Shown piece by piece: positions 21,062 through 34,039 of a stretch of DNA of 60,643 nt. Within the stretch, counting starts at the first letter, position 1; each line of letters starts with the position of its first letter. Below the pieces are notes generated by a model. That model saw only the letters and a program-made list of their open reading frames with translations. It made no database searches and was not told the DNA's origin. Source of the DNA: a virus; the IMG/VR virus record IMGVR_UViG_3300030104_001233, positions 1 through 60,643 of that record. One strand, written 5' to 3'. The position numbers were made by a program, and so were the translations under genes.

Positions 21062-22909
21062 CTAACAAGTTCCATAAGAATTACCATAGCCTCCCTCACA
21101 ATCAAGAGGCAAATCTGGTGCCCATTTGGGCCTGACTTTCATAACTCTCTCAACTAACTGCATCCCTTTTTCAACCTCATCTTCTGGGACTATACATCCA
21201 ATAGCATCGTGTACAGTCATAACAACTTTATATTTCTGCGATACACGGAGCAACTGTTCACCGATAACGATTCTTGCCAGTGCCTGACATACGTTCTCGA
21301 TAACCTTACCTCCATATATTCTAGTAGACATAATCGTTCGACCTTTCCGGGTGTCGTACACAACTTCAGTTCTACCTTCTTCGTCCCTTTCCCTTCTTAG
21401 GTTAGGGTACTTAACATATAGACCGTTAGGGAGCTTTATGCCTTTAACACCATCCACCATGAGTATTCCAGAGCAGCCAAAGTAAGCAATCTTATCTTGC
21501 ATAATGCTCTCTAGTTTATCGCCCGCCGCTCTCCACAACTTGGGTATACGTGCGTAGGTGCTTCTATATACCTTTATAATACGCTCACATTCATACTCAT
21601 CCAGTTCCACCCCAAAGTTCTTGAGCTGGTTTCTAAATTTAACAGCCCCCATTCCATATCCTGCACCTAGTATAGTAGTCTTACCTACGAACCGTTCTTC
21701 TTTTGATATGTCTTCTTCGGGCTTATCGTAGATAGCGGAGGCCATCATCTTGTACACATCATCACCATTATCGAACGCCTCAACTAACCCTCCTTCCTCG
21801 GCCAACCACGCCAGAGTCCGTGCCTCTATCTGAGAGAGGTCACAGTCCACAAACTTGTACCCTTCTGGAGCGCACATAGCTTTTTTAAGCTCACTGCCTC
21901 GCGGTAAGTTCTGCATATTAATCTTGTCATCCCCACCCCATCTGCCTGTGTGGGCAGCGTAGTAGCGTAGTGGTATAGGTAGTGTACCCCTCTGAGCTAT
22001 CTCTATGAACCGCTGTGTTCTTGTTTCTTCGATGGTAGACCTTACTCCTAGTCTAGCAGCTACAAGAGCTTGTACCGACGGATTTTCGTGGTCCTGTAGA
22101 GCCTTAAAGCCCTCATCACTTTTTGCGAAGGCGAACGTCTCCTTGCCTGTGGTAGGGCTTATTTTCGTAGGAGGTTCGATATTGTACTCACGCAACAGCT
22201 CGGCAAACTGTGGATTAGAAGTTAACTGTGTTTTCTCATGGGTAATCTTATCCATTAGAGCTGCTTTAGTATCTACTACGTCTTTTAAGTGCTGGTCAAG
22301 TATATCTTTATCTAGTTCTAAAGCAGGTTCAGTAAACATGCGTAGGGTTAAGTCTATTAATGAAAGCTCAAAATTAGGAAACCCTTTTCTCAATACCTTA
22401 AATAGTTTGTGCGTAAGTTCTACATCTTGTATACAGTACCCACCATAGGCTTCTAGTTCCTCTGGTGTAAAATCTAAACGCTTCTTACCTATCGCATCAT
22501 GCACCTCAGTTCCTTTCTTACCTAATTCGTAATACTCAGATAAAGCTGCTAACCCCCCACCCACTTCAATAGAGTGGATAGCGCGTGACATTGCTAACGT
22601 ATCAGCAATCAACTTGGGCTTAATACCGAAGTGCCAGTTAAGGATAGCCATGTCGAACATGGCGTTGTGAGCTAGAGCCACAGAGTTTGACCAATCAAAC
22701 TGAGACAAAAACTGTTTTGTTTGTTTCTTGCTGCCAGAAAACCATTGTGCCGCAGCAGCTCTGCTTGATGATAGTTCCTGCCCATTGCATTTGACAGCAA
22801 CTCCGATAACCTCAAAACGAGGATCGCGTATATATTCTTCAGTAGTTAGTTTACTTAAACTAAAATCTTTTGAGTAATAAGTTTCAAAGTCGAGGGTGAG
22901 TATGTTCAT
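21062..22909 (-). CDS. polA: DNA polymerase, family A, with 3'-5' exonuclease, 615 residues
   Basis: The N-terminal proofreading domain begins almost at residue 1: LDFETYYS with D7 and E9, then AHNAMFDM, then YCIQDVELT. The polymerase domain has motif A VDCDLSQIEAR (catalytic D357), motif B RFVGKTTILGAGYG (K410, L414, Y418) and motif C TVHDAIG (D568). Residue 414 aligns with E. coli position 762 and is Leu. Motif C has HDA in place of the usual HDE. The enzyme copies the phage genome with the primase-helicase and gp2.5-like protein. The ATG at 22909 is chosen over a GTG nine codons upstream because it places the exonuclease motif at its usual distance from the N-terminus. It overlaps the VRR-NUC gene by 26 bp. 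Confidence 0.93.
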   Translation of the reverse strand: MNILTLDFETYYSKDFSLSKLTTEEYIRDPRFEVIGVAVKCNGQELSSSRAAAAQWFSGSKKQTKQFLSQFDWSNSVALAHNAMFDMAILNWHFGIKPKLIADTLAMSRAIHSIEVGGGLAALSEYYELGKKGTEVHDAIGKKRLDFTPEELEAYGGYCIQDVELTHKLFKVLRKGFPNFELSLIDLTLRMFTEPALELDKDILDQHLKDVVDTKAALMDKITHEKTQLTSNPQFAELLREYNIEPPTKISPTTGKETFAFAKSDEGFKALQDHENPSVQALVAARLGVRSTIEETRTQRFIEIAQRGTLPIPLRYYAAHTGRWGGDDKINMQNLPRGSELKKAMCAPEGYKFVDCDLSQIEARTLAWLAEEGGLVEAFDNGDDVYKMMASAIYDKPEEDISKEERFVGKTTILGAGYGMGAVKFRNQLKNFGVELDEYECERIIKVYRSTYARIPKLWRAAGDKLESIMQDKIAYFGCSGILMVDGVKGIKLPNGLYVKYPNLRRERDEEGRTEVVYDTRKGRTIMSTRIYGGKVIENVCQALARIVIGEQLLRVSQKYKVVMTVHDAIGCIVPEDEVEKGMQLVERVMKVRPKWAPDLPLDCEGGYGNSYGTC

Positions 22910-23195
22910 GGGACGATAAGTACTCTTCGAGTACACCTAGGTTATTTTCGTTGATTATGAATGTTGTGCCTTTGGCTTCTTTAATAGCGTTAAGCTCTCG
23001 TTCCTGTAGTGGAGTAGGTTTGTTCTTACCTGCTTTGCATTCTATTCCAATGAAACGGCCAAAAAAACAACAGACAATATCAGGCACTCCGCTTCGCCCC
23101 ATGCCATAAGTGGCAGGAAAAAAGTAATAGACTTGGTACTGCTTGAGTATATTAACTACTTTGTTTTTGACTTTCTTTTCAGGTGTAAGAGCCAT
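22884..23195 (-). CDS. VRR-NUC family nuclease, 103 residues
   Basis: A minimal VRR-NUC/PD-(D/E)XK domain: GVPDIV (Asp39), GIECKAG (Glu52, Lys54) and TPLQERELN (61 onward). Stand-alone phage VRR-NUC proteins are predicted to cut branched DNA such as Holliday or flap structures. No Shine-Dalgarno is visible before the ATG, and the promoter-like -10 lies only about 8 bases upstream, so the message may be nearly leaderless. It overlaps the polymerase gene, consistent with joint action in replication. Confidence 0.87.
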   Translation of the reverse strand: MALTPEKKVKNKVVNILKQYQVYYFFPATYGMGRSGVPDIVCCFFGRFIGIECKAGKNKPTPLQERELNAIKEAKGTTFIINENNLGVLEEYLSSHEHTHPRL

Positions 23196-23202
23196 TCAAG
23201 TA

Positions 23203-23230
23203 GAATAGCTTAAAGGTTGGACTTTGTAAA
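23203..23230 (-). promoter_or_regulatory. Candidate promoter for the nuclease-polymerase unit
   Basis: On the minus strand, TTTACA (23230-23225) and TATTCT (23208-23203) are separated by 16 bases, just downstream of a strong terminator and just upstream of the VRR-NUC start. This placement makes a promoter logical, though the -10 is imperfect. Confidence 0.45.
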
Positions 23231-23259
23231 GTAAAAAGAACCCCGCCCGAAAGCGGGGT
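23231..23259 (-). terminator. Rho-independent terminator
   Basis: A perfect 7-bp stem ACCCCGC / GCGGGGT with a 6-base loop, followed on the minus strand by TCTTTTT. It ends the leftward accessory (MoxR/VWA) unit. Confidence 0.85.
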
Positions 23260-23272
23260 ATAGTAGGAAGGT

Positions 23273-23292
23273 TGCATAGGAATTCCTATGCA
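23273..23292. repeat. 20-bp perfect palindrome, copy 1
   Basis: TGCATAGGAATTCCTATGCA. It lies 13 bases from the terminator and supplies the TAG stop codon of the 50-residue gene. It is one of five identical copies found only in the leftward early region. Confidence 0.95.
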
Positions 23293-23438
23293 GATTTTGG
23301 AGGGAGTATCTTTTTGTTTTTAACTTGTAGCCATCCTCGCTTGTAGGATGCGTATCTGCTTTTGTTCATTGTCGGGTCTTGCTTGCGTACCTCTGCTAGA
23401 GTAGGACAAGACCCATCATCTTTTTGTTTCTTCATCAT
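23286..23438 (-). CDS. Small basic protein, 50 residues
   Basis: A short basic protein starting MMKKQKDDGSCPTLAEVRK and ending LPPKSA. AAGGAG lies just upstream of a double ATG, and the gene overlaps the end of the preceding gene by 23 bp. The stop codon is formed by the 20-bp palindrome. No family recognised; a nucleic-acid contact is plausible from the charge. It is the last gene of its unit. Confidence 0.6.
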   Translation of the reverse strand: MMKKQKDDGSCPTLAEVRKQDPTMNKSRYASYKRGWLQVKNKKILPPKSA

Positions 23439-23847
23439 TGTTCTCCTTTAAACATTTTAGTTTTAACCATTCGATTGCCTTGTTTACTTCTGCGGGTACA
23501 GGTATGTCTTTCCCACCTTCAACATATAAAGTATCGCAAGGGTAAGTACCCCCACCGTTATACTCCAACTCTCCATCAACTGGAATCCACGTTGTAATAT
23601 CTAATAGGTAGTAAATGTCTCCTATTTCTAGCGGTTTTTCTTCTTCACAAAAAATATCTGCTATATTTTCCCATGACCAATCACACTCTTTCTCGTCAAA
23701 AAGTTCAAAAGAACCATCAGCTAGAATTCCCTGATACCCTATCTTCTCAGCAGAAACTTCTTCCCTGTTCTCTAGTCCAATACATTTCATGCCAATGCAA
23801 TCAAATTGATATATGGGTTCGCCTCTTTTTGTTTCTTCACTCATCAT
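23416..23847 (-). CDS. Uncharacterised acidic protein, 143 residues
   Basis: Not recognised with confidence. It is beta-rich: IYQFDCIGMKCIGL, GYQGILADGSFELFDEKECDWSWENIADIF, then GDIYYLLDITTWIPVDGELEYNGGGTYPC. The repeated small-barrel pattern is reminiscent of YopX-like phage proteins but the match is not firm. I choose the ATG pair at 23847/23844 (MMSEETKRGE) because it follows the AAGGAGAACG site shared by many genes in this cluster; an upstream in-frame GTG or ATG would add about 15 residues. Confidence 0.65.
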   Translation of the reverse strand: MMSEETKRGEPIYQFDCIGMKCIGLENREEVSAEKIGYQGILADGSFELFDEKECDWSWENIADIFCEEEKPLEIGDIYYLLDITTWIPVDGELEYNGGGTYPCDTLYVEGGKDIPVPAEVNKAIEWLKLKCLKENNDEETKR

Positions 23848-24040
23848 CGTTCTCCTTTTCTTTTTGTTTTTTTTCATACTCACCCAAGTCAAAAGACATA
23901 CCCTCTAAGGTAGCCATCATTTCATTGTAGATGTAACTTTTACATTCCTCGTGGGTTGCGAGTTTTTCGTATCCAAAATAATGCGAAATAGCTTCTCTGT
24001 GGTCTTTGAGTAAATCAAAAGTTATTCTAACTTTCATCAT
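23837..24040 (-). CDS. Small helical protein, 67 residues
   Basis: Not recognised. One strand (MKVRITFDLL) is followed by helices and an acidic/lysine tail. The last codons (KENDDE) are encoded by the ribosome-binding site and start codons of the next gene. A double ATG follows AAGGAGAACG. Function unknown. Confidence 0.6.
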   Translation of the reverse strand: MMKVRITFDLLKDHREAISHYFGYEKLATHEECKSYIYNEMMATLEGMSFDLGEYEKKQKEKENDDE

Positions 24041-24314
24041 CGTTCTCCTTTATCCCGACAATGCCTCCATCGTCAGGCCAGTTCTTATCATCAGCAAGAA
24101 TATCTTGCCAGCGTGGTTGGTCTAGGGCTACTTGCGTAGCCCCTTCCTTGTCTGCTTTGTTGACGTGTTCCTCAAGCACTCTTCGCATCTCCTTGGTGTA
24201 ACTAGGAAACTCCTTGAAGTAATCCACTACATACTTAGGTAGTCGCACGTTAGTGTGTAGCATAGAAGGCTTAACGCCTTTGCCTCTGGTTTGTTTATCA
24301 TTCGTCAAAGTCAA
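24027..24314 (-). CDS. Possible ribbon-helix-helix-like small protein, 95 residues
   Basis: Residues ~20-52 (LHTNVRLPKYVVDYFKEFP...EMRRVLEEHV) have the strand-helix-helix pattern of RHH/Arc-like DNA-binding proteins. The C-terminal part is acidic. The start is uncertain: a TTG at 24314 gives the length stated and overlaps the previous gene, while the ATG at residue 18 would leave just the RHH core. The tail KENDDES is encoded by the next gene's ribosome-binding region. Confidence 0.55.
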   Translation of the reverse strand: MTLTNDKQTRGKGVKPSMLHTNVRLPKYVVDYFKEFPSYTKEMRRVLEEHVNKADKEGATQVALDQPRWQDILADDKNWPDDGGIVGIKENDDES

Positions 24315-25206
24315 AATTTAGTTCCTCCATAATGAAAAATTTATCGGCAGTTGCTTTGTATCCCACACCATCAATGGCTGTGTTATCTTCTGCAACTTTG
24401 AGTAAACCAACGGCGGTGCGTACATCTTCAGGCAGATCATCACGTTTCATACGTTTAACTCCCTTGTTTAGCGAGTAATACATATCACCCTTGTTAAGAA
24501 TAAATTGACCCTTATCATTTTCTACAGCATCGTTAAGACTTTTAGTAATTGATATGGCTTCTTTATCTTTCGCCCTTGCTTCTAGTTGCTTACTCATGCC
24601 ATGCGCGTTGACAAACTCAAATAACTCAGACGATTCTTGTTTGAGCATTACGCTAAGTTTATCTATGATGTCACGCGTTGCATTATCCCTTGTTCTCTTT
24701 AGTGAATAAGTGTGGTCAGACAAAGCACTTATTACATCACTCTCCACTTCATCCATTTCTTCCTGTAGGGTAAGAGGGTAAAAGTAACGAGCAAAGACAT
24801 TCTTTGCCGTACCTAGTTTTGAAGTTTTCTTACAACTACCTCGTCTTATATCCTCAGTTACTCGTTCATTGTAAAACTCCATTTGATCGCTGTAATAACT
24901 CCATTCAACTCTACCCAAACACTCTGTATCTGCAAGCACCAAAGCCTGAGTCATATAAACTTTATTTCCTTCTGAGTGATTAGCCTCAAGATAAAACGTA
25001 TATTCTGGATGCCTCTCAGCCAAGTAAGTAAATAAGTTAAGTGAGAAATCTTTGTAGTCTCTGTTTATAAGTTCTACAGGGTCTACAGTGTTTTGCCAAT
25101 ACAACACATTCCTTGGCATGTTCACAAACGATCCAAGTTCCTTATTTTCTATTTGTTCGCGTATTCTTTTTAGTTTACCTCTTTGTCCTCTGTGTACTGC
25201 TTTCAT
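24298..25206 (-). CDS. Uncharacterised protein of the MoxR/VWA cluster, 302 residues
   Basis: Not recognised. It is mixed alpha/beta with many Asp/Glu and aromatic residues in the N-terminal half (SLNLFTYLAERHPEYTFYLEANHSEGN) and a helical middle (EEMDEVESDVISALSDHTYSLKRTRD). The C-terminus is acidic. A good AGGAGGTG site precedes the ATG. It directly follows the DUF3150-like gene, so it may be another component of that system; this is inference from gene order. Confidence 0.7.
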   Translation of the reverse strand: MKAVHRGQRGKLKRIREQIENKELGSFVNMPRNVLYWQNTVDPVELINRDYKDFSLNLFTYLAERHPEYTFYLEANHSEGNKVYMTQALVLADTECLGRVEWSYYSDQMEFYNERVTEDIRRGSCKKTSKLGTAKNVFARYFYPLTLQEEMDEVESDVISALSDHTYSLKRTRDNATRDIIDKLSVMLKQESSELFEFVNAHGMSKQLEARAKDKEAISITKSLNDAVENDKGQFILNKGDMYYSLNKGVKRMKRDDLPEDVRTAVGLLKVAEDNTAIDGVGYKATADKFFIMEELNFDFDE

Positions 25207-25216
25207 ATCACACCTC

Positions 25217-26080
25217 CTACCAGTCGTATGAATTAATAATAGAGTCCACTTCTTCTTTCACTGTCTTACGCACAGTGGGAGAATCTTTGAACATCTCTTT
25301 TGTTTTACCTACCATAATGTCCTCAAGGCGTTGACGTGCTTCTTCAACCTTGGGGTCATCAGTTAAGTTCATATGCTTTAGCATACGGCATAGGTTCAAC
25401 GGATTAGAAACAAACGTGTCATGCCATCGTTTATTATCGTCACTCTCTTCGTCTCCAGTATCCGTACACTTCGCACTTATACCTTGCAGCTCTTTGAGTA
25501 TCCGTTTCTCATTCTCCTTACTCGCTTCAGCTACCTTACGCTCTACTTCTGCATCGCATGAAAGTTTAAGTTCTTCCATTTCCTGTGTAGGTAAGTCCAC
25601 ACAAAAGTGTCCTGACTTCGGTACAGGTATAGATACAAAGTCCCAGTAAAATTTCCCCATGACTTCATTCACTGGTGGGTAATCAAGCGCGTTGAACATC
25701 TCCCCTCTATATTCTTCAGCAGTCTCACGATAACTGAAATACTTAACTCGGAAGGTATCCACTAGTTTGTTAAACCCCGCTTCTTTTAAGTTGTGCTGGG
25801 ATTTGTAATCTAAGAATAGACTAGTAGGACAAAGCCGATAGCCACGTTCATCCCAAGGCAACGTCATGGTGTTGTGCCATAGACGTGCTCCCGCTGCATA
25901 TTTCTGAATATCACTATGGCCTGTTGAACCAACCATTAAGTTGTCATACATACGCATGGCTTTGGGACTAGCTTTCTTGTTCGCAGCAACCTCATGTTCA
26001 AGTTGCTTGTTACGCTTGCTTGCTCCCCATACACCAATACTTAGACGTACCAATACTGCACTGTTTGCTATACCACTCAT
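25217..26080 (-). CDS. DUF3150-like protein of the MoxR/VWA cluster, 287 residues
   Basis: The N-terminal pattern (LVRLSIGVWGASKRNK...KASPKAMRMYDNLMVG, then ARLWHNTMTLPWDERGYRLCP) resembles DUF3150 proteins, which in phages and plasmids are repeatedly encoded beside MoxR-type ATPases and VWA proteins. The C-terminal half is helical with a charged coiled coil (EVERKVAEASKENEKRIL). It probably cooperates with the ATPase and VWA protein encoded upstream; the activity of DUF3150 is unknown. Confidence in the family name is moderate. Confidence 0.6.
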   Translation of the reverse strand: MSGIANSAVLVRLSIGVWGASKRNKQLEHEVAANKKASPKAMRMYDNLMVGSTGHSDIQKYAAGARLWHNTMTLPWDERGYRLCPTSLFLDYKSQHNLKEAGFNKLVDTFRVKYFSYRETAEEYRGEMFNALDYPPVNEVMGKFYWDFVSIPVPKSGHFCVDLPTQEMEELKLSCDAEVERKVAEASKENEKRILKELQGISAKCTDTGDEESDDNKRWHDTFVSNPLNLCRMLKHMNLTDDPKVEEARQRLEDIMVGKTKEMFKDSPTVRKTVKEEVDSIINSYDW

Positions 26081-26376
26081 ATCTCTCTCCTTTTTCTGTC
26101 ATCTATGTAGCGTTCATCTTTTCTTAGTTCACCCGTTGGATCATTTTCTGCAAGCCAATCTTGTAGAAGTAAAGTGATAACTTGGCTAATGGTTAACTTA
26201 ACTCCTATCTTTACAGACATAACAACCACGCAATCCCATAGTATTCCTACGGCTTCCTTGCTTGCGGTTATGTTCCTGCTCTTAAGAGCACTTTTCTTTT
26301 TCCATTCTTTCTCCCTAAGTTTTCGCTCTTCGTCACTCATTGGTGGTCTACCTCTTTTTCTTTTTACTTCACTCAT
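26077..26376 (-). CDS. AT-hook-like basic protein, paralogue A, 99 residues
   Basis: It starts MSEVKRKRGRPPMSDEERK. The RGRP core is an AT-hook motif that binds the minor groove of A/T-rich DNA. It is followed by a helix-rich region and the ending WLAENDPTGELRKDE. The adjacent upstream gene has the same layout and nearly the same ending, so the two are tandem paralogues. The start overlaps the paralogue's stop by 4 bp and follows the AAGGAGAAC site. Confidence 0.75.
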   Translation of the reverse strand: MSEVKRKRGRPPMSDEERKLREKEWKKKSALKSRNITASKEAVGILWDCVVVMSVKIGVKLTISQVITLLLQDWLAENDPTGELRKDERYIDDRKRREI

Positions 26377-26651
26377 TGTTGTTCTCCTTTTCTTAGTTCA
26401 CCTGTTGGATCGTTCGTTGCAAGCCACTCATCTATAATAGCTGTGAGTGTTTGGCCTTTAGTTACTGAAAGATTCTTCAACCCTACCACCTCACCTAACT
26501 TATGCTGAAGCACTGCTTGGGCTTGCGTAATTCTCCCATGTACAGTTTTCGGTACGTTTACGCTTGCGTAAGCCTCTATATGTTTTTTCTTAGCGGCTTT
26601 GCGTTGTTCCTCTGTATGAGGTTTGCGTCCTCTTTTCTTTACTTCACTCAT
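26373..26651 (-). CDS. AT-hook-like basic protein, paralogue B, 92 residues
   Basis: It starts MSEVKKRGRKPHTEEQRKAA and ends DEWLATNDPTGELRKGEQQ, clearly related to the downstream neighbour in its two ends but diverged in the middle. The basic RGRKP segment suggests DNA binding. It begins with an AAGGAGAACGACA ribosome-binding site and lies 12 bp after the VWA gene. A dimerising DNA-binding partner of paralogue A is plausible but unproven. Confidence 0.75.
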   Translation of the reverse strand: MSEVKKRGRKPHTEEQRKAAKKKHIEAYASVNVPKTVHGRITQAQAVLQHKLGEVVGLKNLSVTKGQTLTAIIDEWLATNDPTGELRKGEQQ

Positions 26652-26663
26652 TGTCGTTCTCCT

Positions 26664-27851
26664 TTAGTCAATGTTAATTGTTTTACCCATAGGGGCAGTT
26701 AGTGTTTTGTGATTAGCGATACCCCACAACACAGGCACAGTCCAATTACCCCAATCGCCAATCTCTCCGTCGGTGAGCACTACAACGCAATCGGGTTTGA
26801 TGCCTTCGTTCTTCATGTAATCAACCACACATTGAGGGGTGGTTCCTCCTCCACCCATTGCGGTCTTAAGTTCGGGGGCTTTCTTTAGTTGGTCACTGGT
26901 GAACACACCTCTGTACTCAACACTCCCATCCCAATCGAGCAGATGAATCTTGTTGATGTCGAGGGTGTCACATATACCAACCATCTCGCTTGTCACTTCG
27001 GTTAGTCTATTCTCAAAGTACATAGAGCCAGATGAATCACGAGCAAACACAATCTCATTAATGCTATTACCTTCTAGCGTAGGCATAATGACATCTTCGT
27101 GTAAGAACCTGCGATTAGGTCTGCGCCATGTAGATCGTTCCTTCTTACGACAAGTCGCATTGAGGAACATCCGCAACGCCACTCGCCAATCTACTTTCGG
27201 TGTCACCAACTCACCAAGACCCAGTGCATCTTGCAGTCCTGCTGTACCTGCTCTTGTCCCGTGCATACTTTGTCTTACAGCTTCGTTAATATCACCTTCG
27301 ACTTGTTTCTGTTCTTCCTTGGACAGCTTCTTCGCTCCTTCCCAGTCATGGTCATCAAGACCACCACCTCCTCCTACTGGTCCTTCTCCTTGCTTTGCTT
27401 TCTCAAGTAAGTCATAGAAGATAGCTTTGACCGCCCAGTCGTGATACTCAGGCATGTGTATACCTATGCGGTTACCATCCTTGTCTACTGGAAACTCAAT
27501 GTAGACTGCATTGGGGTCAGCCGTTTCAAGACGATCATTAATCCAAACATCCAAAGCTATATCAGCAATCTGTTGGTTTATCCTTTCCAACCCTTTGTAT
27601 GTATAGAAATGTTTGGCAGCTTTGTGCATCCATTCGTGCGCCAGTACAAACGCCACACCTTTGTCTCCGTTAGCTATAACATTGAATAGAAAGTCAAGGT
27701 TGTACCATTCGTCTCTACCGTCAGTACACGCTGTAGGTATTTCAGTAGTCATATGAGTATTACCGTACATGGCAATACCACGCAGTAACCCAAACGGCGG
27801 TGACCGCATGAGTCCAATCTTTATAGCTTTAAGTTTTCGTTCTTCACTCAT
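26664..27851 (-). CDS. VWA protein with metallopeptidase-like N-terminus (DUF2201-like), 395 residues
   Basis: The N-terminal domain contains AHEWMHKAAKH, an HExxH zinc motif (H72, E73, H76), as in DUF2201-type proteins. A Gly/Asp-rich linker precedes a von Willebrand A domain (about 265-395) whose MIDAS metal site is DSSGSM (272-277), with a later VVVLTDGEIGD strand. Such proteins pair with MoxR AAA+ ATPases, encoded just upstream, in chaperone or remodelling complexes; the peptidase activity of this group is not established. Start at ATG 27851 after AAGGAGAACGACT. Confidence 0.88.
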   Translation of the reverse strand: MSEERKLKAIKIGLMRSPPFGLLRGIAMYGNTHMTTEIPTACTDGRDEWYNLDFLFNVIANGDKGVAFVLAHEWMHKAAKHFYTYKGLERINQQIADIALDVWINDRLETADPNAVYIEFPVDKDGNRIGIHMPEYHDWAVKAIFYDLLEKAKQGEGPVGGGGGLDDHDWEGAKKLSKEEQKQVEGDINEAVRQSMHGTRAGTAGLQDALGLGELVTPKVDWRVALRMFLNATCRKKERSTWRRPNRRFLHEDVIMPTLEGNSINEIVFARDSSGSMYFENRLTEVTSEMVGICDTLDINKIHLLDWDGSVEYRGVFTSDQLKKAPELKTAMGGGGTTPQCVVDYMKNEGIKPDCVVVLTDGEIGDWGNWTVPVLWGIANHKTLTAPMGKTINID

Positions 27852-27863
27852 AGTCGTTCTCCT

Positions 27864-28937
27864 TTATAGTAAGTCCTCATTGTCAGCAGCCCATTGAGCA
27901 AAGTCTCTGTTAGAGAATGCAATCAACTTCTTAGTCTCATGCTTGGCAAGTGCAACACAGAAGATAACTTGCCACTCCTCTTCCATTCGACGTAGGTACT
28001 TCAAGATGTTAGATAGCGTATCCTTCTCGACATGCGTCAGCAGTCCGAAACACAACACCGCACGAGCACCTGCTTCATCTGGTATTAGCGCAGTCGTAGG
28101 AGTCTCTTTGATAGACTGAATTGATGGTAAGGATTCTTGAAAGCGTATGAAGGAAGTAATACTAGCTGCAAACGCTGCCCCCGCTGCACCTGTCAAAGCT
28201 GCTGCTAGAGCAGTATCAGTGTAGTTATCGCGGTTCGCAATGATGCGACTAGCTATCTCCAGTATACGAGGTGATACCACATTGTCATTGGGACTAGATG
28301 GATGAAAGATAAACTCGTTCTTAACCCCATCAAGATAAGAGTCAAGAGCTTGGGGGTATCTGTCCACCCATGCCATCACAATAGGTTCAATGCCGTTGTT
28401 GAGTGCCCATGCCAACCATTCAGGCGCATTGGGTTTACGCACAATCAATTCAACAATACGTTGACGTGTATGTTGGGCCAGACCATCACCCACACCATCG
28501 GTATCAAGGTTACCCGTCATGTAGATAATGCTTCCTTCTGGTATTAGTAAGTCTCCCAGTCTGGGCATAAATACTTCTAGCGCAGGGTGAAGCATATTCT
28601 TTACAGGGTCAGCACCTTTGGTGAATTCGTCAAAGCACATAACAACTGGTTCACCGTTATGGATACCGAACCTAGCATTGGGGTAGTAGCGTGTGACTTT
28701 ATTCTCGTGGTCAATGACAGGCATACACACGTCACCGAGATCGAGATTGCCTACGTCAATAGGTCTACCCATAGCAAGAGGTAATCCAGACTGTCTTGCT
28801 ATTTCGTGAGCAATACTAGTCTTTCCAACCCCCGGCTCGCCTCGGAGCATAAATCTCACGTTGGGGTTGTGGACGATAAGTTGGATGGCTTCGTTAAGTG
28901 TTACAGTTTGAGTTTCATTAATCATTGATATTGTCAT
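27864..28937 (-). CDS. MoxR-type AAA+ ATPase, 357 residues
   Basis: Walker A GEPGVGKTS (33-41), Walker B VMCFDEF (99-105; D103, E104), sensor-1 region YMTGNLD, and an arginine-finger-like QHTRQR. The layout is that of MoxR/CbbQ-like ATPases, which couple ATP hydrolysis to remodelling of a VWA-bound target. It is the first gene of the unit running from 28.9 to 23.3 kb. The 20-bp palindrome ends 15 bases before its start codon, so its expression may be controlled there. Confidence 0.9.
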   Translation of the reverse strand: MTISMINETQTVTLNEAIQLIVHNPNVRFMLRGEPGVGKTSIAHEIARQSGLPLAMGRPIDVGNLDLGDVCMPVIDHENKVTRYYPNARFGIHNGEPVVMCFDEFTKGADPVKNMLHPALEVFMPRLGDLLIPEGSIIYMTGNLDTDGVGDGLAQHTRQRIVELIVRKPNAPEWLAWALNNGIEPIVMAWVDRYPQALDSYLDGVKNEFIFHPSSPNDNVVSPRILEIASRIIANRDNYTDTALAAALTGAAGAAFAASITSFIRFQESLPSIQSIKETPTTALIPDEAGARAVLCFGLLTHVEKDTLSNILKYLRRMEEEWQVIFCVALAKHETKKLIAFSNRDFAQWAADNEDLL

Positions 28938-28951
28938 TCTGTTTCTCCTTT

Positions 28952-28971
28952 TGCATAGGAATTCCTATGCA
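28952..28971. repeat. 20-bp perfect palindrome, copy 2
   Basis: TGCATAGGAATTCCTATGCA, directly upstream of the ribosome-binding site of the MoxR gene. This is an operator-like position. Confidence 0.95.
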
Positions 28972-29005
28972 GATATTTAAAGTTAATGTTAAGGTCGTGC
29001 GCGTT

Positions 29006-29890
29006 TTAATCTCTTCCTCCTTCGTATTTTTTCCAGATGTATTTTTCATTACCGTTAAAAGTCCTTTTGCTCACTTCCCTTTGTTCAAAGAGTTCATCAG
29101 CGAACGCATACTTCACAATGTCGCTGATCGTATCCTTGATTATTTGTTTATCGAAAAGGTGAGTGGTTTGGTACGTTCTTGCTTTTAGATCCCATTTAAC
29201 AGCTCGCTTTCGCGCTGTCTCTAGCATCATAGGTACAAGCCGACCCCATGAGCTTGATCCATCCACGAGGTCTTTGTGGTAGTGCAGAGTCAGGTCTTTG
29301 TATATATCGCGGTAGTACCAATCTTCATGGACACCATAAAGTTTATCCCCTTGCACCTCTTTAGCGTCGGCCAGTTTAGCCATGCGTATGCAATGCTGTT
29401 CAAACTCTTTAAGTGGTTTACGGTGGGCGTTGTACTCCTTGCGTTTAAGGTAGTACTCAAAGTTTTTTGGTGGATCAATGGCAACCCATTTGTCACCTTC
29501 ACGTTTCATCTTGAAGGTTCCGTTTGAGTCAACATGGTAGGATTCAGTGCGACTAAGACATACTTCCGTAAAAAATGCCTTCGTACGGAGATAAACATAC
29601 GGATAGAGAATCCCACTGACAAATGCGTGCGTAGTGTTACTGACGTAACCACCTGAGTGGTACTCAACTGTGCCATCCTTGTAGAAGGTCAGCACGTCGG
29701 TATCGTATAGCCGACACGCTATCGCATCATCACGCTTGATGATCTGCATGTGCTTCTTGCGTCTACCATTTTTAGTCTTACATATGGGGCGTACGTTGTT
29801 GCTGCCCCTGATAGGTTTTATCTGGGTGTAATGTCCCAGTGCTGATTCGTATGAGTGTAGCTGTGGTAAATCTGTTATTCCTCCAAACAT
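29006..29890 (-). CDS. Uncharacterised phage protein, 294 residues
   Basis: Not named, but residues ~48-95 (IACRLYDTDVLTFYKDGTVEYHSGGYVSNTTHAF) have a strand-rich pattern of a 'nucleotide-to-repeat' kind that I have seen in hypothetical proteins of many unrelated phages. The middle is aromatic and charged; the C-terminal half is helical. It follows two small membrane or basic genes and precedes the palindrome before the MoxR gene. Role unknown. Confidence 0.7.
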   Translation of the reverse strand: MFGGITDLPQLHSYESALGHYTQIKPIRGSNNVRPICKTKNGRRKKHMQIIKRDDAIACRLYDTDVLTFYKDGTVEYHSGGYVSNTTHAFVSGILYPYVYLRTKAFFTEVCLSRTESYHVDSNGTFKMKREGDKWVAIDPPKNFEYYLKRKEYNAHRKPLKEFEQHCIRMAKLADAKEVQGDKLYGVHEDWYYRDIYKDLTLHYHKDLVDGSSSWGRLVPMMLETARKRAVKWDLKARTYQTTHLFDKQIIKDTISDIVKYAFADELFEQREVSKRTFNGNEKYIWKKYEGGRD

Positions 29891-29905
29891 AATAACCTCC
29901 TCACT

Positions 29906-30091
29906 TTATGATGATCTGTATCTTCGTTTGATTTGCCTAACCACTTCTTCGTGCAGTTCGGGCGCACCCTCCTCCATGACATTCCATAGCATGGAGTCGG
30001 TTTCACGTAACCCTCGTTCAAGTTTGTATATTCGTAGTGCCATGACTACGTTAGCAGCCACAAGTGCTGCTAGTATGAAATTAATATCCAT
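29906..30091 (-). CDS. Small membrane protein, 61 residues
   Basis: Residues ~4-22 (NFILAALVAANVVMALRIY) form one transmembrane helix, followed by a charged, mainly helical cytoplasmic or periplasmic tail (LERGLRETDSML...VRQIKRRYRSS). AGGAGGAT precedes the start. It may sit at the inner membrane during early infection; no family recognised. Confidence 0.65.
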   Translation of the reverse strand: MDINFILAALVAANVVMALRIYKLERGLRETDSMLWNVMEEGAPELHEEVVRQIKRRYRSS

Positions 30092-30121
30092 CTTCTATCC
30101 TCCTAGTTAGTTTGGTTTGCG

Positions 30122-30322
30122 TTATCGTGCGTGAAACTCTCTTGTCAAATCTTCAAATTTTCTATCAAAGGCTCTATGTAAAAACCTTAGTTCGCTTCTA
30201 ATTTTCTCGGCTTGCTCTGGTGTTGTATTCTCATGTACGAGAACAGCAACCCAATTCCTATGAGCAAAATCAAGCGTCCTTTGTAGCTTTTCCCATTTCT
30301 TATTAAACTTTTTCCTTTTCAT
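30122..30322 (-). CDS. Small basic helical protein, 66 residues
   Basis: It starts MKRKKFNKKWEKLQRTLDF and consists of two or three charged helices. An AGGAGGATAG site precedes the start, and the neighbours are small early genes. No family recognised; no catalytic motif seen. Confidence 0.6.
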   Translation of the reverse strand: MKRKKFNKKWEKLQRTLDFAHRNWVAVLVHENTTPEQAEKIRSELRFLHRAFDRKFEDLTREFHAR

Positions 30323-30325
30323 CTT

Positions 30326-30514
30326 CTATCCTCCTATTTGAAACATGATGATTGTGAATAGACTCCATATAGCTGCTACACCCATACCACCTGCTATGAA
30401 AGCGGATGTGTAGCCCATCCACTTCAATACTGTTACCCAAACAGGGGTAGTGTCTGCCCATACGTGTTCGTTGTGTGGGTCATGTATGTTTAGCTTTTCA
30501 AAGTTGTTATCCAT
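30326..30514 (-). CDS. Small membrane protein, 62 residues
   Basis: A hydrophilic N-terminal half with His/Asp/Asn is followed by a hydrophobic region of about 30 residues (VLKWMGYTSAFIAGGMGVAA and onward), probably one or two membrane passes. It overlaps the HAD phosphatase gene by 8 bp and has the cluster's typical AAGGAGAACGACA site. It could modify the host membrane early; it is not near the lysis genes. Confidence 0.65.
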   Translation of the reverse strand: MDNNFEKLNIHDPHNEHVWADTTPVWVTVLKWMGYTSAFIAGGMGVAAIWSLFTIIMFQIGG

Positions 30515-31394
30515 TGTCGTTCTCCTTTTTCTGTTTCCAATTACTTGTATCTATTTTGCTAGTAGCCGTATCGATATGATGTACTAGCTTGTCTCGCCAC
30601 AACTCTTTCTCCTTTAGTTGTCGTTCGAGTCCTACCAAGGTGTTCATTAACCTTTCAGCAACCTCGTTGTAGTACCCACGCTCACGAGTGACCAGAAACT
30701 TAAGTTCTTCCATAGTCAGGTCATCAAGGTCAGCTTCCATGAGGTGGTGTCGCTTGGGTTCCTCCTTCCACGCGTCTACCTGTAGACACCGGAACCCTTC
30801 TTTGCGCCACATATCAACCACGCTTTGCCTATCGTCTAGTATGCACAAGACATCATCAGGGGTTATCTTTAACTCGTACATCATCTCGTACTTAATAGTG
30901 GTGTCCGGTCTATAGTCACCTTCCTTACGCATATACAGATAGGGTCGGCCATCGTTCTTAAGGCTAGAAGGGGAGACAACCCATCTTTGTAACCACTCTT
31001 CTGTCTCTTTGCGTACCACTTCGCTACGTCCTGAGAAGAAGTAGATGAATCTATCGCTAACCTTTTGTAGATCAGTGGGGCGTTCACCATGTTTGCGGCC
31101 AGCGTCATACATATTCCACAGTATCTCAATCACATCCTTGTACGGTTCATCATCCACACACGCTTTGGTGAATGAATCCCAATCTGGACGTAACTTTTTC
31201 TTTAGCTCATCAATCTCCTGTTGATCCTCGGTGCATATATTAGGAAACTTGTTATGGCCTTTTGAGTCGCTGCTTAACGTAGCTATCCTCTTCTTTATCT
31301 CGGCTTCTTTGGGATTCCTGATGTAATGTAGTCTGTGTTCGATGTTGGCTATCGTGCCATCTATGTCACATATGATTAGGTTTTTATCTTTCAT
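30507..31394 (-). CDS. HAD-family phosphatase, polynucleotide-kinase 3'-phosphatase-like, 295 residues
   Basis: HAD motif I CDIDGT (D10, D12), motif II FFSGRSE, a Lys in the TTIKYEMM region, and motif III/IV ILDDRQSVVDMWR. Spacing and the MRKEGDYRPD stretch resemble the phosphatase half of T4 PseT-like end-healing enzymes; no kinase P-loop is present. It would remove 3'-phosphates from nicked nucleic acid. Residues ~215-295 are a charged helical extension. Part of the unit between the zinc ribbon protein and the small membrane proteins. Confidence 0.82.
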   Translation of the reverse strand: MKDKNLIICDIDGTIANIEHRLHYIRNPKEAEIKKRIATLSSDSKGHNKFPNICTEDQQEIDELKKKLRPDWDSFTKACVDDEPYKDVIEILWNMYDAGRKHGERPTDLQKVSDRFIYFFSGRSEVVRKETEEWLQRWVVSPSSLKNDGRPYLYMRKEGDYRPDTTIKYEMMYELKITPDDVLCILDDRQSVVDMWRKEGFRCLQVDAWKEEPKRHHLMEADLDDLTMEELKFLVTRERGYYNEVAERLMNTLVGLERQLKEKELWRDKLVHHIDTATSKIDTSNWKQKKENDNG

Positions 31395-31405
31395 TCTCTT
31401 TCTCC

Positions 31406-31597
31406 TTATGTAGTACGTTTAGGGTTTAGTTGCTTTAGTTCATCCTTCGACAGCACCATGTAGTTGCTCTTGTTTAGTGGTGCTATCGTATGTCTTACTT
31501 GTTTAGCTTCGAGTTCTCCACACTCGAAACAGGTGTCAATACCCAAGCTCTTTCGTGCTGGTGAGTATGGTTTGTTACATAAACGGCAAGTTGCCAT
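31406..31597 (-). CDS. Small zinc ribbon protein, 63 residues
   Basis: Cys pairs CRLC and CFEC, about 20 residues apart, then EAKQVRHTIAPLNKSNYMV. This arrangement is a widespread small phage protein with no known function, distantly reminiscent of DksA/TraR zinc fingers. The ATG at 31597 is chosen over a longer frame because AAAGGAGGAG precedes it exactly. It is the first gene downstream of the repeat-rich promoter region. Confidence 0.8.
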   Translation of the reverse strand: MATCRLCNKPYSPARKSLGIDTCFECGELEAKQVRHTIAPLNKSNYMVLSKDELKQLNPKRTT

Positions 31598-31956
31598 AGG
31601 TCTCCTCCTTTGTGGTGATACAATGTTATGAAAGTAATGTGTAATGTTATGCCTAGTATAACAATGTGGTACAAATGTGGAAGCCACGAATACGTTGGTC
31701 TGTAGGAATGTTATGTTTGTATTGTTATATTGTTATGAGAAAAAAGAAAAAAGGTATACGTTTTGTGCTTTGCTTTTTCATTGCACAAGAGGCCCGAACA
31801 AACACTCGTAAAAGTTTGTATGCTCTTTTTTTGTGTAACATTACACAATAGGCCGTTTTGCCTTGTGCATCAAAGCGTTGGAACGTAAAGTTAAACATAA
31901 CATTATAAAATACTGTAACATTGTGGTACATAGTATGGCGCAGCTCCTCCATAACT

Positions 31957-31978
31957 ATCATCAGTAGCTACTGATGAT
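31957..31978. repeat. 22-bp perfect palindrome
   Basis: The left half ATCATCAGTAG is followed immediately by its exact reverse complement. It lies 8 bases from copy 3 of the 20-bp palindrome and is unrelated to it in sequence. Confidence 0.95.
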
Positions 31979-31986
31979 TTAAGATC

Positions 31987-32006
31987 TGCATAGGAATTCC
32001 TATGCA
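31987..32006. repeat. 20-bp perfect palindrome, copy 3
   Basis: TGCATAGGAATTCCTATGCA in non-coding DNA, between the terminator at 32045-32081 and the zinc ribbon unit. Confidence 0.95.
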
Positions 32007-32044
32007 AGCGAAAATGAGCGAAATCTGGGCACTTTTTTAAGGCC

Positions 32045-32081
32045 CAAAAAAATTGCCCCGCGTAATAAAACACGGGGCAAT
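32045..32081 (-). terminator. Strong Rho-independent terminator
   Basis: A 9-bp stem (ATTGCCCCG / CGGGGCAAT) with a 12-base loop, followed on the minus strand by seven T residues. It ends the two-gene unit (223- and 38-residue proteins). Confidence 0.9.
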
Positions 32082-32098
32082 GTGTGACGTGGTACGTT

Positions 32099-32215
32099 TT
32101 ACGACTGACGTTTTAACTTGCGAGCTTTTTTGATTGCTTTACGTCTAGCAATATCCTGCTTGAGTCTAGACTTTGAGGCAATGAAAGCTTTATGTTTGAT
32201 TCTGCTATTCATCAT
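32099..32215 (-). CDS. Very basic mini-protein, 38 residues
   Basis: It starts MMNSRIKHKAFIASKSRLK and ends ARKLKRQS, with about half of the residues Lys or Arg. Two ATG codons overlap the stop region of the 223-residue gene (AATGATGAATAG), indicating coupling, and a terminator follows. Probably a nucleic-acid-binding peptide; no family recognised. Confidence 0.6.
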   Translation of the reverse strand: MMNSRIKHKAFIASKSRLKQDIARRKAIKKARKLKRQS

Positions 32216-32876
32216 TCGCTCCCTTAACTTCTGCTAGGTTATGCTCGATAACACCAATCACATCGATCAAATTCTCAGTAATATATTGTTTAAGCTCTCT
32301 GTCCTTGTTTAATTTCTTTATGTCATTAAACAATGCTTTAATATCACTAAGGCGATTAGTTGCAGAGGTGATTTTGTTTTCTAATCTCTTTTGATTAGAG
32401 ACAGTAGACGTTTTCTTTTTGTCTGCGATCTCTTGCACCAATTCAGAATTTTTCTCTGCACGTTCTTCAGCGTCGTTACTTTGTTTCGTTCCTTGGTACA
32501 ACATAAAGTGACGTTTGAATGTTTGACAGAATTGCGAAAACTCTTGTGCGCCATTGGCATGAGATTCATTAAACTTGCCACGTATACCATTCAATATGTC
32601 ACGAGCATTATCCCAAACTGTTTCAGTCCATCCTTTTGATTCACAGAATTCCTTTCCGTATTTACTTTCGAAGTTTTCGTATTTGGCTTTCGGATCGGCG
32701 TTAACTAACGGGATAATTTCCATATGTGCTTTCGGATCGGTATCACAAGCTAATGCAAAATCCTTTATGCTTGAATCCATATCCTTTTTATTGTTACCAG
32801 TTTTCTTGATCGCATTATGTAATTGTCTTTTTGCTACGCTAATAGATGGAACATCTTTAGTAGTTAGTTTGTTCAT
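32205..32876 (-). CDS. Uncharacterised helical early protein, 223 residues
   Basis: Not recognised. It is predominantly helical and charged with a coiled-coil-like second half (ERAEKNSELVQEIADKKK; NRLSDIKALFNDIKKLNKDR). I choose ATG 32876 (MNKLTTKDV) rather than the longer frame, whose added residues are encoded by the tandem repeats and palindrome. The first gene of the leftward arm, right behind the repeats; an early regulator, structural scaffold for replication or host take-over protein are all possible. Confidence 0.7.
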   Translation of the reverse strand: MNKLTTKDVPSISVAKRQLHNAIKKTGNNKKDMDSSIKDFALACDTDPKAHMEIIPLVNADPKAKYENFESKYGKEFCESKGWTETVWDNARDILNGIRGKFNESHANGAQEFSQFCQTFKRHFMLYQGTKQSNDAEERAEKNSELVQEIADKKKTSTVSNQKRLENKITSATNRLSDIKALFNDIKKLNKDRELKQYITENLIDVIGVIEHNLAEVKGANDE

Positions 32877-32897
32877 AACTTTTTCACTCTTAGTTAT

Positions 32898-32917
32898 TGC
32901 ATAGGAATTCCTATGCA
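32898..32917. repeat. 20-bp perfect palindrome, copy 4
   Basis: TGCATAGGAATTCCTATGCA. It ends 21 bases upstream of the start of the 223-residue early gene, an operator-like position. Confidence 0.95.
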
Positions 32918-32934
32918 GATTATGTTTGACTCTT

Positions 32935-32982
32935 AATGTGATACACGCGCTCCCCCTGTAACAATGTGATACACGCGCTCCC
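32935..32982. repeat. Direct repeat pair A (20 bp, 28-bp period)
   Basis: AATGTGATACACGCGCTCCC occurs at 32935-32954 and 32963-32982. The second copy is extended on its left into the motif TAACAATGTGATAC (32959-32972) that also occurs near 31.66 and 31.92 kb. Confidence 0.95.
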
Positions 32983-32993
32983 ACTAAGTTAAT

Positions 32994-33041
32994 AGTGTGA
33001 CGTGGTACGAATTGGTAAAGAGTGTGACGTGGTACGAATTG
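32994..33041. repeat. Direct repeat pair B (21 bp, 27-bp period)
   Basis: GTGTGACGTGGTACGAATTG, with one more A on its left, occurs at 32994-33014 and 33021-33041. A 15-bp part (GTGTGACGTGGTACG) occurs a third time at 32082-32096. The near 2.5-turn helical spacing of pairs A and B suggests iteron-like protein binding. Confidence 0.95.
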
Positions 33042-33055
33042 AGAGCCGATTGGAT

Positions 33056-33075
33056 TGCATAGGAATTCCTATGCA
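33056..33075. repeat. 20-bp perfect palindrome, copy 5
   Basis: TGCATAGGAATTCCTATGCA, 14 bases from repeat B and immediately followed by the hairpin at 33076-33098. Confidence 0.95.
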
Positions 33076-33098
33076 AAGTGAGAAACTTTCTCTCACTT
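33076..33098. other. 8-bp inverted repeat (hairpin)
   Basis: AAGTGAGA and TCTCACTT are separated by 7 bases, followed by A/T-rich DNA (TATATATATTC). It is not followed by a T-run in either direction long enough to be a clear terminator. It could be a protein-binding site or an unwinding element. Confidence 0.6.
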
Positions 33099-33223
33099 AT
33101 ATATATTCTAGCATATTTACAGAATCTTGCATTAAAAAAGGGTACGGGTGGGGTATACCCCTTTCCACCAATTAAGTACCGCGCCCCTATATACATAATA
33201 ATTTGCACATTGAGTCACACAAC

Positions 33224-33253
33224 TTGACAAACTCAAGTAACAAACTCTAATTA
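33224..33253 (+). promoter_or_regulatory. Candidate rightward promoter for the late arm
   Basis: A perfect -35 TTGACA (33224-33229) and TAATTA (33248-33253) separated by 18 bases, about 165 bases upstream of the small terminase gene. The -10 is weak, so an activator may be needed. Confidence 0.4.
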
Positions 33254-33398
33254 AATCAATGACTTACCCCCACCCCCCTTCTTTTTATACCTGTCTGGCT
33301 CGCACCCCACCCTGTCCCACACAGAAACACCCCCCTTTGGAGTCCCGTACCTCCTCTTGAATACAGGGGGTATACCTGTGTTACACTCCGCAAAACTC

Positions 33399-33413
33399 GG
33401 TATTGCGGATACC
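33399..33413 (+). promoter_or_regulatory. Small hairpin directly upstream of the terminase start
   Basis: GGTAT-TGCGG-ATACC lies 5 bases before the ATG of the first late gene, where no ordinary Shine-Dalgarno is visible. It may influence translation initiation. Confidence 0.35.
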
Positions 33414-33418
33414 TGCGT

Positions 33419-34039
33419 ATGTCAGTTGTACAAGTGGAACCTACAAAGGACCACCCCGTTCCCTACGATTTATCGGAGGAGAAACCTGCGACTCTGATTG
33501 AAGAGATAGCAGTGGCGGGCAACACGGCAGAACTACAAGTAGAAATGGGCGCATCTTTGGATATATCTGAAGGGGATGCGGCTAAAGAGAAAGAATTACT
33601 CCGCGCTGTAGCGGAAGCAAAGAAACCATCAAATCTGACAAATCAGACCACGGCGTTTGCTGCGGCTGCGTTTCTTCGGACCTATGGTGCCCAACTAGCG
33701 ATGGATGCGGCACAGGCACGGTCTGCGATTACTAACAAACTCATGGAAATAGCTGACTGTGGTGACACACGTTACGAGCTTAAGGCATTGGAATTGTTAG
33801 GAAAACACAGTGATATAGGTATTTTTACTGAGCGAAGTGAAATTACCATTAACTACAAGAGTCCAGAAGAGCTGGAAAAAGCGATTAAGGAGAAAGTTAA
33901 GAATCTTCTTAATGCTACGTTGGTAGATGTAACACCTCTAGCCGATGATTCTGAAGAAGAACTGGACGAACTACTGGGTGTGGTCGATTTGGATACTGAA
34001 GAAGAGAATGTAGATGACGAGCACAGCCTCTCCGTTTGA
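33419..34039 (+). CDS. terS: Terminase small subunit-like protein, 206 residues
   Basis: Residues ~100-165 (ARSAITNKLMEIAD...ELKALELLGKHSDIGIFTERSEITINYKSPEELEKAI) match the pattern of phage small terminases from several marine and Gram-negative phages, and the gene directly precedes and overlaps the large subunit by 26 bp. It recognises phage DNA for packaging. The C-terminus is acidic, as expected for interaction with the large subunit. The start lacks a clear ribosome-binding site; a later ATG at the MGASLD position is an alternative. Confidence 0.82.
   Translation: MSVVQVEPTKDHPVPYDLSEEKPATLIEEIAVAGNTAELQVEMGASLDISEGDAAKEKELLRAVAEAKKPSNLTNQTTAFAAAAFLRTYGAQLAMDAAQARSAITNKLMEIADCGDTRYELKALELLGKHSDIGIFTERSEITINYKSPEELEKAIKEKVKNLLNATLVDVTPLADDSEEELDELLGVVDLDTEEENVDDEHSLSV

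Follow-up and report, generated by a model that had tools for sequence, protein, structure and literature searches.

Adjacent genes for a MoxR-type AAA+ ATPase and a metallopeptidase-VWA protein are already known from phages. In the Schitoviridae phage N4 the pair is gp24 and gp25 (PHROG 1297 and PHROG 1314), adjacent homologues of the two proteins considered here; both are middle genes and count among the 14 genes that make up the core of N4-like phages, with gp24 given as unknown in the core-gene list (PMC4193335). Group 2.2 jumbo phages have the same two-protein MoxR and metallopeptidase-vWA architecture (Iyer et al. 2021, PMC7824862), for which the available text of that paper proposes a virion role and describes neither a DUF3150-like subunit nor a plasmid setting. 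The MoxR-vWA ternary conflict systems (PMC7159879) combine MoxR and vWA proteins with a third conserved protein, as does the locus described here, but the third proteins described for them are of the VMAP, iSTAND or FtsH type. Given the pair in N4 and in jumbo phages (PMC7824862), what the present analysis adds is the third partner and the plasmid setting.

Gene layout of the unit and its surroundings

The stretch of DNA analysed here (the window) comprises the 60,643 bp of an IMG/VR virus record and plausibly comes from a podovirus, as judged by terminase, portal and internal virion protein matches. No megablast match to positions 22000-34000 was found in the phage collection. A search with the primase/helicase indicated that the phage group of the window is widespread. 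A 2306-residue ORF at 4965-11885 has no Pfam match, and RHph_TM3_14A carries an ORF of near-equal length (EVB41_084).

The unit at 23286-28937 consists of ten ORFs, all on the minus strand, whose genes overlap or nearly touch; the original prediction of a compact unit held, although it had counted nine genes. Three small ORFs close the unit: one of 67 aa (23837-24040), which was not found in relatives in the HMM survey; one of 158 aa (23416-23892), whose real start is possibly internal and which is also present in the related locus L002; and, as the last gene, one of 50 aa (23286-23438). The extent first given to the unit covers its core and misses two widely conserved neighbours upstream on the same strand. 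These are up294 (29006-29890), conserved in both clades of related loci (32 loci, those of clade ii reached via iterated profile search only), and the small cysteine-rich Zn93 (31406-31687), found as 40 ORFs by the HMM survey and 41 by single-sequence search, which in clade ii usually lies directly upstream of the DUF3150-like gene.

Downstream, also on the minus strand, lie a VRR-NUC-like nuclease gene (22884-23195; 41 ORFs) and a gene for a family A DNA polymerase with 3′-5′ exonuclease (PolA, 21062-22936; Pfam, 1.4e-36 and 7e-8), which is near the module in clade i. The nuclease has no Pfam match of its own; its profile matches the annotated VRR-NUC protein EVB41_068 at 1.2e-17. The AAA+, VWA and DUF3150-like genes (the triad) share their arm of the genome with PolA, a PD-(D/E)XK nuclease, an SNF2 helicase and a primase/helicase, and not with the structural genes.

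The three core proteins

The first core subunit (27864-28937, minus strand, 357 aa) matches PHROG 1297 at 2.7e-38. Searched against PDB, its family profile hits midasin best (6.5e-35), followed by ClpC (8e-11) and NorQ (1.9e-8), and some family members match AAA_5, AAA_3 or bpMoxR. Residues K39, D103, N143, R160 and R224 are invariant in 20 sequences, and the Walker A, Walker B, sensor 1, arginine finger and sensor 2 motifs, role names that were assigned in this analysis, are conserved in 49. By these motifs and its closest solved relatives, the predicted product is a MoxR/midasin-type AAA+ ATPase.

The second core subunit (26664-27851, minus strand, 395 aa) scores well above the Pfam cutoffs for both DUF2201_N (5.3e-21, 75.9 bits versus 23.2) and the VWA domain DUF2201 (7.6e-9, 36.2 bits versus 26.4). 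H72, E73 and H76 of the HExxH motif together with D101, a putative third zinc ligand, are invariant in 49 of 49 sequences, as are the MIDAS residues D272, S274, S276, T337 and D361. The HExxH domain, which Pfam terms just a 'putative' metallopeptidase, weakly matches a solved M48 peptidase (0.011). The earlier assignments of an AAA+ ATPase and a VWA protein with HExxH are thus firm by both Pfam and PHROG. The label 'HNH endonuclease', which PHROG 1314 attaches to the VWA protein, has to be rejected: the Pfam scan of the window member found no HNH family, with metallopeptidase and VWA domains in its place. N4 gp25 in NC_008720 and proteins in other phage records are also labelled 'HNH endonuclease', a misleading name that apparently spread from PHROG 1314 and is corrected here.

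The third core subunit (25217-26080, minus strand, 287 aa) is mostly helical, with long helices in its AF2 model (pLDDT 86.9) and no fold match in PDB. The window protein itself has no DUF3150 match in Pfam or NCBIfam, and the connection to this family comes through relatives: the window protein matches the annotated DUF3150 protein of MinM2 at 3e-17 (tblastn), and a plasmid homologue reaches 1.1e-4 against PF11348 (22.1 bits, just under the cutoff of 24.9). Since no profile match exceeds the cutoff, we keep the label 'DUF3150-like', as first proposed, and do not call the protein a member of PF11348. We found no paper on DUF3150 in the open-access literature.

Conservation of the triad in viruses, plasmids and bacteria

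Searching IMG/VR with an alignment of the DUF3150-like protein yielded 53 loci, the gene content of which was surveyed with HMMs. Each of the 30 loci that extend at least 4 kb to both sides of the DUF3150-like gene also has the AAA and VWA genes, and the three genes lie on the same strand within 6 kb in 47 of 47 loci, counts that are conditional on the presence of the DUF3150-like gene through which the loci were retrieved. The synteny survey called for by the original prediction thereby establishes the triad as a real conserved unit. Clade i loci have the order Zn93, up294, AAA, VWA, an optional small gene, DUF3150-like, U302, RHH, VRR-NUC, PolA; the order in clade ii is Zn93, DUF3150-like, AAA, VWA, up294, VRR-NUC. 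Distance matrices of the three triad proteins correlate (r 0.93-0.94), which mainly reflects shared inheritance because other gene pairs of these phages also reach 0.75-0.95.

Outside this set, the pair is far more common than the triad. Relatives of the VWA protein occur in 662 phage records, including those of jumbo phages, whereas tblastn detected a DUF3150-like relative in three near-identical 65,014-bp phage records only, with one more weak match when a clade ii query was used. Many phages with the AAA-VWA pair therefore have no DUF3150-like protein that could be detected, and the third subunit is not universal; the N4 locus likewise has no detectable homologue of the DUF3150-like protein, U302 or up294.

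The DUF3150-like search also matched 41 plasmid records. In the seven Burkholderiaceae plasmids that we examined, which are mutually related and do not count as independent cases, the module adjoins PRTRC genes, with type IV secretion genes following it in five of the seven. As in the window, the three subunits are adjacent and on the same strand, but their order is AAA-DUF3150-VWA, they stand beside ParB-type and conjugation genes, and the proteins are about 20-25% identical to those of the window; in the L155 plasmid the ATPase row is absent from the annotation table. A hypothetical gene of 500-519 residues lies between PRTRC and triad on plasmids L069, L072, L073 and L152-L155, and those of L072 and L073 were without a match in PADLOC and without a convincing one in Pfam. 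Triads were also found on Simplicispira, Rhodovastum and Variovorax plasmids, with a ParB-family gene near the Rhodovastum triad, and on a Bartonella chromosome, where the triad is preceded by an ORF judged by eye to be ParB-like. The scan of the genome collection returned five loci only. A Candidatus Manganitrophus plasmid (L156) carries AAA, DUF1257, DUF2997 and DUF3150 genes with no VWA annotated nearby.

Accessory genes

Between the VWA and DUF3150-like genes of the window lie two short basic paralogues, ATh1 (26373-26651, minus strand) and ATh2 (26077-26376, minus strand), which are 36% identical and may each carry an RHH-like C-terminus. Their description as AT-hook-like is weak: the RGRP core is present in ATh2 only, as RGRPP in an AT-hook-like N-terminus that scores below the Pfam AT_hook cutoff (E 0.044, 14.1 bits versus 17.4), while the basic N-terminus of ATh1 has RGRKP and no Pfam AT_hook match. 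The close orthologue of ATh1 is a single-copy gene in L002 and those of ATh2 are single-copy genes in L003 and L021, no others being found. With the counterpart of one in L002 and those of the other in L003 and L021, the pair looks like stacked alleles and not a fresh duplication.

Two further genes are confined to clade i. U302 (24298-25206, minus strand), a 302-residue protein present in 25 loci, yields an AF2 model (pLDDT 87.2) with no convincing fold match in PDB, and hhalign detected no mutual homology among U302, up294 and the DUF3150-like protein. The RHH-like protein (24027-24314, minus strand; 20 ORFs including that of the window) had been named in the original prediction, the call resting on a match of its C-terminal segment to PHROG 377 (2.4e-5) and a motif identified by eye; the HMM survey did not find the gene in clade ii, the N4 locus or the MinM2 locus. 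Among the 30 well-covered loci, up294 is present in 22, U302 in 13, the RHH gene in 10 and AT-hook-like genes, which were seen only in the window, L002, L003 and L021, in 2. The DNA-binding neighbours of the triad thus appear to be mostly optional extras.

Repeated palindromes

The palindrome that had been noted in front of the unit is real and stronger than described, and its repetition had been missed: TGCATAGGAATTCCTATGCA, a perfect 20-bp dyad, occurs five times without mismatch in 60.6 kb (shuffles give an expectation of 0.00), each time between 23.2 and 33.1 kb. Two of these copies bracket exactly the ten-ORF unit, one (28952-28971) directly before the AAGGAG ribosome-binding site and the ATG of the AAA gene and one (23273-23292) at the unit end, before a terminator-like hairpin at 23259-23240. 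The others lie upstream of the Zn93-to-up294 gene block (31987-32006), close to where the 32205-32984 ORF probably starts (32898-32917) and in a divergent intergenic region (33056-33075). In or near this region a 23-nt direct repeat occurs twice (32935-32985), and the direct repeat GTGTGACGTGGTACG occurs three times (32082-32096, 32995-33009 and 33022-33036); both are possible promoter or origin elements.

L002 and L003 carry the window palindrome at the corresponding positions, two of which show a symmetric variant. Most of the remaining clade i phages, as well as L004 and MinM2, have a phage-specific palindrome of their own (carriers of such palindromes besides the window: L002-L004, L006, L012-L025, L029, L031, L032, L056 and L080). 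The palindromes, of about 16-23 bp, are near-identical within one phage and differ between phages. In clade ii, repeated palindromes were limited to two copies each in L038 and L039; we found none in the plasmid loci that were examined, nor in the stretches from RHph_TM3_14A, KPP25 and Rollin. Across 124 copies in 18 sequences, which in related loci are not independent, an RBS-like motif with a start codon follows 65% of palindromes versus 15% of random positions, and a terminator-like hairpin follows 12% versus 0.6%.

Simple RNA hairpins are a possible explanation, as the palindrome stems do fold, but of the 17 inner positions that a hairpin loop would leave free 16 are complementary (p 3e-9 at 1/4 each; one hand-chosen consensus copy per family, with some copies in L014-L016 breaking the symmetry). 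This symmetry through the palindrome centre suggests a dimeric DNA-binding regulator as reader. The RHH protein was considered as a canonical strand reader and fails the covariation test: its strand HVNVRLP is identical in L002, L012, L014 and L019 despite their different palindromes, and L017/L018 have LVSLRLP though their palindrome is that of L012/L013. Overall, the palindromes look like an operator or punctuation system, of which we found no description in the literature. The stoperators of cluster A mycobacteriophages similarly occupy many sites per genome with a motif that varies between phages, but these are asymmetric and repressor-bound (PMC6550527), whereas the sites in the window group are perfect palindromes.

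Discussion

The linkage of the three genes, the intact catalytic residues, the position in the replication arm and the occurrence on plasmids are direct observations. Our best explanation, which we regard as an evenly balanced proposition, is that the triad encodes a machine of three subunits, supplied by the element itself, which uses ATP to remodel or proteolyse proteins in the early or replication phase. We infer complex formation, an adaptor, proteolysis and a substrate as follows: the MIDAS of the VWA domain would hold a substrate on which the MoxR/midasin-type AAA+ ring pulls, the metallopeptidase domain would cut the substrate or release part of it, and the helical DUF3150-like protein would be a fixed third subunit, most likely serving as adaptor or scaffold. 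As substrate we envisage a protein, either the host's or the element's own, that belongs to the phase of replication, maintenance or host takeover. A tentative variant of lower probability is a general mobile-element protease or remodeller, shared by phages and conjugative plasmids, that processes a replication or partition nucleoprotein complex, with the phage operon being one of several placed under a fast-changing, phage-specific palindromic operator.

The alternative closest to published proposals is a chaperone for virion assembly that also processes structural proteins by peptidolysis, as put forward for the jumbo-phage pair in the available text of that paper with reference to an archaeal virus tail-assembly system (PMC7824862); in roseophage RPP1, moreover, the genes of some virion proteins lie close to the homologues of gp24/25 (PMC4193335). 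We consider this unlikely and favour an early-phase remodeller over a virion-only role because triads occur on plasmids, which make no virions, because the window triad lies in the replication arm and because N4 gp24/25 are middle genes (PMC4193335). A protease for counter-defence or host takeover, which would remove a defence or regulatory protein of the host, would fit a triad that lies outside the late genes and is common to phages and conjugative plasmids, two kinds of element that are both exposed to host defences, and MoxR-vWA modules do occur in conflict systems (PMC7159879). This reading is doubtful, since PADLOC matched no defence-system model beyond a short P-loop similarity to IetA, and a core status in N4-like phages together with presence in a plasmid family would be wider than is usual for anti-defence genes. 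The original prediction of a DNA- or nucleoid-directed remodelling machine, recruited by small DNA-binding proteins, drew on the AT-hook-like and RHH-like genes inside the triad's unit. With the former in so few loci and the latter confined to clade i, it has become very improbable; the survey came close to what had been named as counting against it, a conserved cluster lacking the DNA-binding genes in all relatives.

The repeated palindromes suggest that these phages have a system of regulation or punctuation. The pair with its third partner on plasmids that lack virions shifts the working hypothesis for the triad towards replication or maintenance and away from virion assembly, and the plasmids that carry it are tractable systems for testing its role.
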